Below are positions 1,449-4,831 of a DNA stretch of 22,642 bases, one piece after another; within the stretch, counting starts at the first letter, position 1; the number at the start of each line of letters is the position of its first letter. The notes beneath the pieces are model-generated. The model searched no databases. It had not been told where the DNA came from and saw only the letters and a program-made list of their open reading frames with translations. Both the position numbers and the translations under genes were made by a program. The DNA is taken from positions 1 to 22,642 of the IMG/VR virus record IMGVR_UViG_3300030090_002705; one strand, written 5' to 3'. This stretch comes from a virus.

Positions 1449-1724
1449 ATGATACAGAGGTATTGCAACTGGTGTCAGGCAGCAATGGAGTGTCGCAGTA
1501 GCCAGAAGATGTACTGTAGTCACAAGTGTCGGGATGCAAGTTACCGGGACAGGAAGAAGCTAGAGACTAGCAACAAGGTTACACGTAGGTACTGTGAACA
1601 TGGGGGGATACGGTATCCGGTAATGACAAACAAGTGGGTAAGGATATCGACTTGCCCGTGGCATCCTGTTATGCTTGGGATGAAGTCACTGGAGTGGTTA
1701 GCTGTTCAGAGAGGGGGAGAATAA
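1449..1724 (+). CDS. Cys-rich zinc-finger-like protein (91 aa)
   Basis: The protein opens with a probable zinc-binding knuckle, Cys6-x2-Cys9 and Cys23-x3-Cys27, followed by a basic stretch (RDRKK, residues 33-37). A second possible metal site is Cys49-x-His51 with Cys69-x2-His72. This layout is typical of small phage DNA- or RNA-binding zinc proteins, often of unknown role. An AGAGG ribosome site precedes the ATG at a rather short 3-base spacing. Its TAA stop overlaps the ATG of the next gene (TAATG), so it is probably translated together with the small-terminase candidate. It is the first gene of the rightward block and lies just after the Fur-like sites, so it might be regulatory or assist packaging. 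That role is inference. Confidence 0.75.
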   Translation: MIQRYCNWCQAAMECRSSQKMYCSHKCRDASYRDRKKLETSNKVTRRYCEHGGIRYPVMTNKWVRISTCPWHPVMLGMKSLEWLAVQRGGE

Positions 1725-2245
1725 TGGCTAGGACTTCTAATGCGAGCAAGCATCCAGCCTTACAGGTTCATGCTCAGAGGGGGATGCAGGAGACGGAGGA
1801 TCGGTTAAAGAAGGGGCTGTTGGAGCTTGATGCGTACCAGCGGCTTACTGGGGAAGATCAGAGGTTTCTTGCGGCGTACCTGCATCATCGGGATCTGGCC
1901 TTGGCGGTTAAGGAGCAGGGCAGGGATCTGAAGTGGGTACATGAGAAGCAGCGTACTGTTCACGGGTTTCAGGATGTCATGGATTACGTGACGAAGAATG
2001 CCAAGGAGTTTGCCTTGGTCTATGCTGAACAGATGATGGCTGCTAATTTATTTGAATTGAATGATATGATCCGTGATCCTGATGTGGACACGGCGAATAA
2101 GATCAAGGCCATCAAGGAAAACAGGGAGACGGTTAACAGTCTTAGTGGGGATAATATCTTCGCCAAGGGAACGCCGACCATGTTTAATATTACCATTCAT
2201 GGATTTGACCAGCCCAATGACGATAAGAATATTATTGATGGATGA
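1724..2245 (+). CDS. terS: Putative terminase small subunit
   Basis: The 173-aa product is mostly helical. Residues 44-75 (DQRFLAAYLHHRDLALAVKEQG...) resemble the N-terminal DNA-binding helices of phage small terminases. Residues 95-140 form the likely oligomerisation helices, and residues 152-161 (TMFNITIHGF) match the short beta segment many TerS proteins carry near the C-terminus. Position one block upstream of the large terminase supports the call. I chose the ATG at 1724: it overlaps the previous stop as TAATG and has GGGGGAG upstream, whereas the in-frame start at 1634 lies inside the upstream gene. The last nine residues (NDDKNIIDG) and their DNA are repeated at the end of the gene finishing at 2818. 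TerS normally recognises the viral packaging site and hands DNA to TerL. The family call rests on shape and context, not a strict motif. Confidence 0.65.
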   Translation: MARTSNASKHPALQVHAQRGMQETEDRLKKGLLELDAYQRLTGEDQRFLAAYLHHRDLALAVKEQGRDLKWVHEKQRTVHGFQDVMDYVTKNAKEFALVYAEQMMAANLFELNDMIRDPDVDTANKIKAIKENRETVNSLSGDNIFAKGTPTMFNITIHGFDQPNDDKNIIDG

Positions 2246-2246
2246 T
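2216..2246 (+). repeat. 31-bp direct repeat, copy 1 (3' end of terS)
   Basis: This copy matches 2789-2819 at 30 of 31 bases; the single difference is a silent GAT/GAC change at an Asp codon. It encodes the last nine residues of the small-terminase candidate and includes the ATGA stop/start overlap with the next gene. The copies start 573 bp apart, an exact multiple of three, and lie in the same frame. Confidence 0.9.
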
Positions 2247-2370
2247 CTGTTCTTCATGTAAGGAGAAGTCCCGTGTAATGAAGTTGCTCAGGTGGCCTGA
2301 AACTATAGTTACATATTTTTGTACTAGAGAATACTGTGAAAATAGTAGGTATAAAGTAGATGATAAGTGA
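2242..2370 (+). CDS. Tiny zinc-ribbon protein (42 aa)
   Basis: This short frame begins with an ATG that overlaps the stop of the upstream gene as ATGA. It ends in TGA eleven bases inside the next gene (start 2360), so it is well placed for translational coupling on both sides. The product has Cys3-x2-Cys6 and Cys27-x4-Cys32 separated by 20 residues, the signature of a minimal four-cysteine zinc ribbon. A basic stretch (KEKSR) follows the first pair. No strong ribosome site is visible apart from the coupling. Small four-cysteine phage proteins often bind nucleic acid, but no function can be assigned. It lies inside the segment bracketed by the 31-bp direct repeats, so it may have arrived with that cassette. 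Confidence 0.65.
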   Translation: MICSSCKEKSRVMKLLRWPETIVTYFCTREYCENSRYKVDDK

Positions 2371-2818
2371 AAATATTAACGAGGGTGTTCTTTTCTGTGA
2401 TGGGTTTGAAGAGGCACTGATAGGAATAGCAGAGCAGTACCATAGACCTGCTATAGCAATATATGACAGGGGGAAGGTCATAGAGATTCTTGTTCAAACC
2501 AAGGATATGTCATACGAAGATGCTGAAGAGTATTTTAACTATAATATCTTTCATGCTTGGGTAGGAGAGCAGACTCCTATGTTCCTGTCTTATGTAGATA
2601 CACAGACACTTACTAGGGCAATTATACGTGCTCAGGACATACGGGTTTCTCAACCGTGGAATAACTCACCAACAGACCATAAGATAATCAAGAAACTTGC
2701 TGAGTATGAGCAAATTTTCAAACAGGATGGCGGGTACGTGGATGATTATGACGTAAGGTATCACGGTAAAGACGCTTTTCCCAACCTAAATGACGATAAG
2801 AATATTATTGACGGATGA
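2360..2818 (+). CDS. Conserved phage protein of unknown function (152 aa)
   Basis: Residues 13-76 carry the pattern of a widespread, uncharacterised phage family: CDGFEEALIGIAE, an AIYD segment, then MSYEDAEEYFNYNIFHAWVGEQTPMF. I recall this layout (D-G-x2-EA, FN-x3-AWVGE-x-TP) from many phage genomes but know no function for it. The protein continues about 75 residues past the usual core end and finishes with NDDKNIIDG, identical to the end of the small-terminase candidate. It starts inside the 42-aa gene and its TGA overlaps the next ATG (ATGA). There is no independent ribosome site, so it is probably coupled. The C-terminal tail may be a captured copy of the terS end or a shared binding peptide. 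Confidence 0.8.
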   Translation: MISENINEGVLFCDGFEEALIGIAEQYHRPAIAIYDRGKVIEILVQTKDMSYEDAEEYFNYNIFHAWVGEQTPMFLSYVDTQTLTRAIIRAQDIRVSQPWNNSPTDHKIIKKLAEYEQIFKQDGGYVDDYDVRYHGKDAFPNLNDDKNIIDG

Positions 2819-2819
2819 T
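2789..2819 (+). repeat. 31-bp direct repeat, copy 2
   Basis: This is the second copy of the repeat at 2216-2246, with one silent difference. It encodes the last nine residues of the 152-aa protein and the ATGA overlap with the gene starting at 2815. The bases before each copy do not match, so the homology begins abruptly. Confidence 0.9.
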
Positions 2820-3393
2820 AGCGATAGATATCACTCCTAGTATGATTGAGAAGGCCCAGATGGAGGCTAGCAGGGTTGGAGTCCTGAATAACTCTATACT
2901 TCAGGGCAAGGGCAATCTTGCAGGTAAGATTGGAGAAGAGATTGCTGTCAGGTCTTTTGGTGCTGAAATCGTTGACTCTTATAGCTATGACGTAATGATG
3001 CGGGGGCAGAGGGTAGAGATAAAGACCAAGAGACGTACGGTAACTCCTCGACCCGATTACGAGGTGTCTATAGCAAGAACCAGTGTCCATCAGGCTTTAG
3101 ATGCTGATACATACCTGTTTATCAGCCTGACGATGGATGGAGATGTTCCTGTTAAGGGATGGGTGTGCGGGGAAATGCCTGTCAGTGAGTATTTTGACAG
3201 GGCTAGGGTCATTAGAAAAGGGGAAAAAGATTACCGCAATAATTTTGTATGCCATACGGACATGTATAATATGCCAATATCCCAGTTGTATCCGGTAGAT
3301 CTTCCGATGTTTAATACGCAGATGACTATGGAAAGTATATTGCAGGACACCTTAATAGTTCCTAAGCCCTATATGGATAAGTATGAGCACTGA
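2815..3393 (+). CDS. PD-(D/E)XK nuclease-like protein (192 aa)
   Basis: The sequence shows the core of the PD-(D/E)XK nuclease fold: a helix with G40-E41-E42 (GKIGEEIAVRSFGAE), Asp59 in SYDV, then after a short turn Glu68-x-Lys70 in QRVEIKTK. These match the Glu, Asp and E-x-K metal-binding and catalytic set of phage recombination or resolvase-type nucleases. Later residues show beta structure (YLFISLTMDG, around 106-115) and no further motif. It starts by an ATGA overlap with the preceding gene and its end overlaps the large-terminase start by 11 bases. Its position between the terminase subunits suggests a role in trimming or resolving DNA before packaging, or destroying competing DNA. That role is inferred; the fold call is fairly firm. 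Confidence 0.7.
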   Translation: MIAIDITPSMIEKAQMEASRVGVLNNSILQGKGNLAGKIGEEIAVRSFGAEIVDSYSYDVMMRGQRVEIKTKRRTVTPRPDYEVSIARTSVHQALDADTYLFISLTMDGDVPVKGWVCGEMPVSEYFDRARVIRKGEKDYRNNFVCHTDMYNMPISQLYPVDLPMFNTQMTMESILQDTLIVPKPYMDKYEH

Positions 3394-4831
3394 CCAGTTA
3401 GTTGAAACGAATGTAAATCTGGCCGACTACTACAATCCACATGCTGGACAAAGACCGATACACCAGTCTGTAGCCCAGAACAAGTGGCTGGAGATGGCCC
3501 GACGTTTCGGTAAGTCTAGGTCTGCTTTTGGAGAATTCCTCCGTGCATATCAGGACGCAATGGTTATGCCAGTGGATGCATCAATGGTTCCACCTTTCCA
3601 TGCGTGGATTGCTGTCCCCAGCTTTCCCCAGTCCAATCAGGTCTGGAACGAGCTCATGTCCCTGATACCCCCAGCTTTTGTGTACCGTACCAATCAGGAC
3701 GACCGCACAATCTATCTCAGGGGGTCACAAGCTAGACCATGGGGTCTACTAGAGGTCAAGTCATGCCATAACCCTGAAGCACTGCAGACTGCTGGTCTGG
3801 ATTTCCTGTGGGTTACTGAGTCTCAGGATATCGCTAACCGTGCTTTTGAAAAACTCCTTCCCACCCTGCGCAGTCCCGGACGAATGAGTCGAGCCGTATT
3901 CGAGGGCATTCCCTCCCTCTATTCCGACCACTGGTTCCGAAGGGGCTGCGCAGCAGCATCAGACGGCAGGGAGAACCATGCTTACTTCCATGCAACCGTG
4001 TATGACAATCCTACCCTGAGTCCCGAAGATGTGGCCGAGGTAGAAGGAGACAAGGACTTATTGCCTCTCAGGGTATGGGAGCGCATGTACCTAGCGAACT
4101 TCAATGATGACGCTGGCTATTTCAGTAACGTATCCGCGTGTATTGCAGGTGATCTGCTGCCAGAACCCCTGCCCGGTGCGGAATACGTCGCGGGATTAGA
4201 CCTTGGTCGTAAGGTTGACGCATCCGTAATGACCATTATGGACGCAAAGGAACGCCGGGTTGTCTACCATTACAGGTGGGACGACTCAGAAAACTGGGTA
4301 CTGCAGAGGGATTCCATAGTACGGATTGCTAGTGACTGGGGTCTGAGCCGGGTAATGGTCGATGCTACTGGTATGGGTGGTGACATGTTCATGTCCGAAA
4401 TGCTGGAAGCTGGCGTACCAGCCGAACCATTCATATTCACACAGGCTTCAAGGGAGAGCATACTGCAGGATCTGTCGGTAGCAATGGAGAGGGAAAGTAT
4501 ACGATTCCCACAGGTGGACGCATTGCTCCGTGAACTAAGGGCATTTCAGGTCAGGAAGCTGCCAAGCGGCAGGCCACGGGCCGAAGCTCCACCCGGAGAG
4601 CATGATGACGAGGTATTCGCCCTTGCACTGGCACTGAACTGCTGCGCCCCAGCGCCTACTACCGATACGTCGATTCGTTCAAGGAAAATGGGCGGTAGGT
4701 ACGCACCTACCCAGAACGAGGCAAACAATAACCAGACGGCTCCCGGTGCACGGAATTCGGCACAAAGATATGCAAGACAACGAATTCTTGATAAAATCCG
4801 TGACAGACAGGATCAGTTGCAGTTATTATAG
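3383..4831 (+). CDS. terL: Terminase large subunit
   Basis: This is the packaging motor that cuts concatemeric DNA and pumps it through the portal using ATP. The 482-aa length fits the family. The N-terminal ATPase has a variant Walker A at residues 39-45 (ARRFGKS) and a Walker B-like strand FLWVTES with Glu146 as the likely catalytic carboxylate. The C-terminal RNase-H-like nuclease shows Asp273 (AGLDLGRKVDAS), Asp327 (VMVDATGMGG) and the HDDE motif at 407-410 before ALALAL. The start overlaps the preceding gene by 11 bases without a strong ribosome site, suggesting coupling. The C-terminal tail after about residue 425 is polar and basic and probably flexible. Confidence is high from the combined motifs. 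Confidence 0.95.
   Translation: MSTDQLVETNVNLADYYNPHAGQRPIHQSVAQNKWLEMARRFGKSRSAFGEFLRAYQDAMVMPVDASMVPPFHAWIAVPSFPQSNQVWNELMSLIPPAFVYRTNQDDRTIYLRGSQARPWGLLEVKSCHNPEALQTAGLDFLWVTESQDIANRAFEKLLPTLRSPGRMSRAVFEGIPSLYSDHWFRRGCAAASDGRENHAYFHATVYDNPTLSPEDVAEVEGDKDLLPLRVWERMYLANFNDDAGYFSNVSACIAGDLLPEPLPGAEYVAGLDLGRKVDASVMTIMDAKERRVVYHYRWDDSENWVLQRDSIVRIASDWGLSRVMVDATGMGGDMFMSEMLEAGVPAEPFIFTQASRESILQDLSVAMERESIRFPQVDALLRELRAFQVRKLPSGRPRAEAPPGEHDDEVFALALALNCCAPAPTTDTSIRSRKMGGRYAPTQNEANNNQTAPGARNSAQRYARQRILDKIRDRQDQLQLL

Follow-up and report, generated by a model that had tools for sequence, protein, structure and literature searches.

A 31-base direct repeat of the end of a terS-like gene brackets two small genes in the variable terS–terL interval of a metagenomic phage contig

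The window, i.e., the whole stretch of DNA analyzed here, is the entire IMG/VR record IMGVR_UViG_3300030090_002705 of 22,642 bp. Close to its left end, a terS-like gene for the small terminase subunit is followed on the same strand by a short cysteine-rich ORF, a gene that we call gene 2, a nuclease-like gene and terL. Two copies of a direct repeat bracket the Cys-rich ORF and gene 2 (Table 1). To the left, positions 1–1450 hold short ORFs only, and another Cys-rich ORF of 91 aa (1449–1724; MIQRYCNWCQ...CSHKCRDASYRDRKK) with weak profile matches lies directly upstream of terS. Searches for tRNAs and against Rfam gave no match in the window.

Table 1. Features of the terS–terL region of the window
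Feature	Position	Strand	Length	Remarks
terS-like gene	1724..2245	+	173 aa	Assigned by position, homology to relatives and helical predicted fold; by comparison with relatives, source of the original tail
Repeat copy 1	2216..2246	+	31 nt	Covers the final nine codons of terS, its stop, the ATGA overlap and one base more
Cys-rich ORF	2242..2370	+	42 aa	CxxC...CxxxxC, zinc-ribbon-like; start codon inside repeat copy 1
Gene 2	2360..2818	+	152 aa	phrog_13182 domain, residues 4–86; extension, 87–143; TerS tail, 144–152
Repeat copy 2	2789..2819	+	31 nt	Covers the final nine codons of gene 2, its stop, the ATGA overlap and one base more
Nuclease-like gene	2815..3393	+	192 aa	E...D...(D/E)xK pattern; third cargo gene
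terL	3383..4831	+		Bounds the slot on the right; matches phrog_2 (large terminase subunit), E=1.6e-23; 93% identical in L007

A sequence-only reading of this locus had described two 31-base blocks with one silent difference, nine shared residues at two C termini, matching ATGA overlaps and an abrupt start of the homology. All four statements were confirmed. The copies are identical in 30 of 31 positions, and the sole mismatch is GAT versus GAC, both encoding Asp; with this differing base, the exact run common to both copies is just 23 bp. The reading frame is kept in both copies, i.e., terS and gene 2 each end in ...NDDKNIIDG*, and the stop codons overlap the next ATG at 2242 and 2815, respectively. 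With a simple composition model, about 7e-9 pairs of 31-mers matching in at least 30 of 31 positions are expected in the window, and a score-limited scan reported this as the only short-range direct repeat. Farther upstream the likeness stops abruptly: the 57 residues of gene 2 preceding the tail compare with TerS no better than shuffled sequence does, and the same was found for the DNA. An origin of the gene 2 extension as a decayed second terS copy was rejected because the likeness ends at the tail. A degenerate search of IMG/VR for the exact peptide NDDKNIIDG followed by a TGA stop found no further copy. One silent change in nine tail codons, compared with about two expected at the divergence of terL between the window and its relative L007, gives no date for the duplication.

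Relatives of the window (given here as L numbers) were collected from IMG/VR via TerL, which is 93% identical in L007 and about 50% identical in about 35 contigs. IMG/VR queries with the nuclease-like protein or TerS returned no close relative, or L007 only, and a TerL profile found no relative in the genome collection. TerS was recognizable in many of the relatives found by TerL. The window's TerS-like protein matched no database family; it is 37% identical to the ORF at the same position in L007, tail included, and near its N terminus it has an HPA motif that is common to the TerS candidates of the relatives. TerS of L007 ends in ...GFDNPTDVKVIEG, compared with ...GFDQPNDDKNIIDG in the window, and tails of a comparable, though diverged, kind are found on TerS of L012, L014 and L099. 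Because these four proteins end in this way, the tail is taken as native to terS.

Gene 2 matched the profile phrog_13182, a family without assigned function, with residues 4–86 (E=1.2e-26). Its aligned homologues are about 86–107 aa in total and stop soon after the common domain, and they have neither a TerS-type tail nor the approximately 57-aa extension of the window protein. No homologues of this extension (residues 87–143) were found; matches in L117 (antisense, inside terL) and in L057 and L060 (inside an unrelated ORF) were judged to be chance. A fold search with the gene 2 model against the PDB gave nothing at E≤0.001; the predicted models of TerS and gene 2, built with 13 and 10 sequences, respectively, have moderate quality. 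Members of the gene 2 family are also present in large Bacillus phages, and L014 has two of them upstream of terS (119–412 and 602–925) with a Cys-rich ORF in between. Judged by the sequences compared, i.e., the TerS tails of the relatives and the tail-less gene 2 homologues, the tail belonged to TerS first and came to gene 2 secondarily. This fits the earlier suggestion of a rebuilt 3′ end.

The sequence-only reading had alternatively proposed a shared functional tag. The nine residues would then dock to a partner, probably TerL in the case of TerS, and gene 2 would carry them to bind the same one. The C-terminal moiety of TerS reportedly binds TerL in lambda and P22 (PMC9611059). In the model of the window's TerS, residues 144–173 have pLDDT<50, i.e., the tail is part of a flexible C-terminal portion, and its copy on gene 2 is predicted to be unstructured and may hence be accessible. 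Moreover, an [IV][IV][DE] motif occurs in 8 of 13 TerS tails compared with 1.4 in shuffled tails, when the tails are taken as unrelated. However, TerS of L095, L096, L101 and L102 are without this motif, and the gene 2 homologues in the slots of L097, L099 and L101 have C termini unrelated to the tails of their own TerS. Also, the identity is found at the DNA level and continues for several bases past the stop codon, which a peptide does not need but which is expected from DNA copying. The proposal of a tag is weakened by these findings and we regard it as improbable; that a cargo protein captured the TerS docking peptide and targets the packaging ATPase TerL, as a new packaging regulator or competitor, seems slightly more doubtful still.

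The bracketed segment 2247–2788 (542 bp) has a G+C content of 39.7%, compared with 48% for the window. This value (0.397) is below that of every non-overlapping 542-bp stretch of the window, which bears out an earlier remark that the bracketed DNA is more AT-rich than its flanks: it is the most AT-rich stretch of its size. Its 42-aa Cys-rich ORF had no family match and no convincing homologue among the loci of the relatives examined; homology to the Cys-rich proteins of these relatives was not detectable. Searches with the cargo proteins against the PDB, NCBIfam and PADLOC gave no assignment. Scanning the region for promoters, with a sigma-70-like consensus only, gave 8 sites compared with 6.4 expected from shuffling, and no terminator was found on the + strand of the segment.

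A site-specific integrative element that uses the 31 bp as its att core and restores the end of the gene it enters would formally have the same architecture, i.e., a repeat at a gene's 3′ end and a restored reading frame. No recombinase is encoded in the 542-bp segment according to the ORF list and profile and family searches, although a trans-acting enzyme could lie outside this partial genome. No pair of terminal inverted repeats was found at the two ends of 2247–2788. Furthermore, the exact peptide core occurs in no other IMG/VR record, and where the cargo has homologues, these follow other sequences. We give such an element hardly any credence.

The protein encoded downstream of the second repeat copy is 36–39% identical to proteins of two other phages, with E41, D59 and K70 invariant, and matched no family or PDB entry. 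On its motif alone, it is probably a PD-(D/E)xK-type nuclease. The two phages with relatives of this protein are Ruegeria phage RpAliso and an uncultured podovirus; their neighbors there are genes of nucleotide and RNA metabolism and not terminase genes. The nuclease-like gene is therefore travelling cargo itself.

The interval between terS and terL is a variable slot in which small accessory genes come and go. In L012, L013, L014, L018, L104–L107 and L117, terS abuts or overlaps terL. The interval contains a 92-aa orphan in L007, a gene 2 homologue alone in L099, a Cys-rich protein and a gene 2 homologue in L101, these two and a DNA cytosine methyltransferase in L097, a Cys-rich protein and a methyltransferase in L095, L096 and L100, and a Cys-rich 59-aa ORF in L102 and L103; the methyltransferases were called by sequence motifs, with no family search. 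As the contents differ in this way among relatives, the Cys-rich ORF, gene 2 and the nuclease-like gene of the window are one more filling of the slot. At its right border, DNA similarity between the window and L007 (about 83% over 3.6 kb) starts at 3377 and 4995, respectively, 6 bp before the terL start codon. At this sharp mosaic border, recombination has thus broken the DNA before.

The methyltransferase-like genes (L095, 3569–5026; L097, 2612–3970; L096, 1492–2628; L100, 452–1642) have a variable middle part that is open in two frames. In the second frame, it contains repeated [NKG]WPTP cassettes of about 24–54 aa, and their order varies between near-identical contigs (B C D E F G H in L095, J G C F A in L097). 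This arrangement suggests a dual-coding gene with cassettes that have been shuffled. A literature search for WPTP found nothing relevant.

L095 and L097 are 97.7–99.3% identical in the aligned blocks flanking the slot, and only L097 has the gene 2 homologue. In L097, this gene is bracketed by the 10-bp direct repeat ACGATTAATT, with one copy at 2354 in the 3′ end of the Cys-rich gene and the other at 2581, where the gene 2 homologue itself ends. L095 has a single copy at 3538 and its Cys-rich gene is intact. Microhomology of at least 10 bp is expected in 7.5e-5 of random deletions. Since the more distant L101 has the gene, the state of L095 is most simply a loss: the gene 2 homologue would have left by recombination between short direct repeats, and the upstream gene would have been left whole. 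The pair resembles the window in that a gene 2 homologue lies in the terS–terL slot with a direct repeat at gene ends; the repeat has 10 bp and lies at the end of the Cys-rich gene, in contrast to the 31 bp at the end of terS in the window. This filled and empty pair, with its short direct repeat where the upstream gene ends, supports in part the cassette of the sequence-only reading; being most simply a loss, it is no case of gain by this route. Of the other clean indels in the relatives, one of 310 bp in L111/L112 is without microhomology and one lies inside the methyltransferase cassette array, hence repeats are no rule for all indels.

The contig L097 also bears on the reality of the arrangement. 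An assembly artefact, i.e., two genomes joined at a common short sequence, could be supposed for a metagenomic contig such as the window, given that the repeat is about as long as common assembly k-mers. However, the copies differ at one base and the exact run is only 23 bp, and L097, a separate contig, has a similar order of terS, Cys-rich ORF, gene 2 homologue, enzyme and terL. We consider an artefact highly improbable.

We propose, as a reasonably probable explanation, that the repeat is a recombination footprint around non-autonomous cargo, where a segment was joined into the terS–nuclease junction and the end of terS was duplicated. The setting would be an operon tightly packed by start/stop overlaps in which small genes are gained and lost. 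Segment 2247–2788, with the Cys-rich ORF and gene 2, would have been inserted at the terS–nuclease junction via short-homology or template-switch recombination. This insertion would have duplicated the last 31 bp of terS, and the duplication would have supplied the left ORF with its start codon and the right ORF with its last nine codons and stop. The repeat would be a footprint and not the att site of an autonomous element, and a recombinase would not be required. Recombination between the copies could lead to precise loss that leaves terS and the nuclease gene both intact. At the empty site, terS ending in ...NDDKNIIDG would be joined through ATGATAGCG to the nuclease gene, with one repeat copy.

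Among the IMG/VR relatives searched, an empty-site relative of the window itself is not known: terS joined directly to this nuclease gene was not found, and the nuclease gene is in no relative examined. For the window's own lineage, we thus infer the exact event, i.e., gain by this route, its direction and the duplication of the terS end, from the observed repeat, slot, variable cargo and presence or absence of the gene in L097 and L095. As the nuclease gene is cargo too, the ancestral terS–nuclease junction is an assumption. The inserted cassette of the sequence-only reading hence stands insofar as it is accessory cargo and many relatives have nothing in this slot; it does not stand as an unusual mobile unit or site-specific element, given that there is no recombinase and no convincing terminal inverted repeats. 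Of the two observations that the sequence-only reading had named as making a recent insertion unlikely, only one was made: the two genes are missing from some relatives, but the tail does differ among those compared.

The event could also have taken place on the nuclease side. The Cys-rich ORF and gene 2 would already have been behind terS and the nuclease gene would have come later, from a related phage with the nuclease after terS, with the last 31 bp of that terS fused to gene 2. L097 and L101 indeed have a Cys-rich gene and a gene 2 homologue straight after terS, and the varying position is the last before terL, with a methyltransferase or nothing. Such an event would account for the odd gene 2 extension as foreign DNA that is read through, and the nuclease family is found in other phages and other contexts. 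However, G+C is lowest in the Cys-rich ORF and gene 2 and intermediate in the nuclease gene. Moreover, the donor needs a near-identical terS end, and none was found in IMG/VR. We consider this order of events rather unlikely, though a serious rival.

With cargo joined in behind terS as the preferred explanation, the closest known case is genes 43–46 of mycobacteriophage LRRHood, four genes on 1.35 kb with 29-bp direct repeats (Pope et al. 2011, PMC3029335). One repeat copy lies at the end of the upstream gene, and relatives are single-copy and cargo-free; the authors preferred the view that the genes were acquired from another phage by recombination, without naming a recombinase (PMC3029335). 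Both loci have direct repeats of about 30 bp (29 versus 31) around small accessory genes (1.35 kb versus 0.54 kb), and in both the upstream gene ends in one of the repeat copies. By this analogy, the arrangement in the window is repeat-flanked cargo of the LRRHood kind, a kind already known. In contrast to LRRHood, where single-copy empty relatives are known, none is known for the window; the window also differs in having terS as host gene and a second copy that is fused in frame to a cargo protein.

By the definition quoted in PMC3029335, phage morons are accessory genes that have been inserted where relatives have two adjoining genes. The window resembles them in its extra genes between neighbors that are adjacent in relatives and in their deviating base composition. 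A difference lies in the start/stop overlaps that tie its genes into the operon; as for signals of their own, neither promoters, scanned with the sigma-70-like consensus, nor terminators exceeded the level of shuffled sequence. The mobile element MPME is likewise a very small inserted DNA in phage genomes, of about 440 bp, with terminal inverted repeats and 6 bp added at the target, and it is near-identical in several phages (PMC3029335). Neither terminal inverted repeats nor a 6-bp addition nor near-identical recurrence were seen for the window.

If the tail is functional, for which support is weak, it would represent a new way of regulating packaging. On the preferred explanation, small accessory genes can enter a tightly overlapped phage operon without breaking either neighbor, and short repeats at stop/start overlaps would keep both frames whole on gain or loss. 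Near-identical filled and empty terS–terL slots, as in L097 and L095, are a natural test bed for the gain and loss of cargo without a recombinase.
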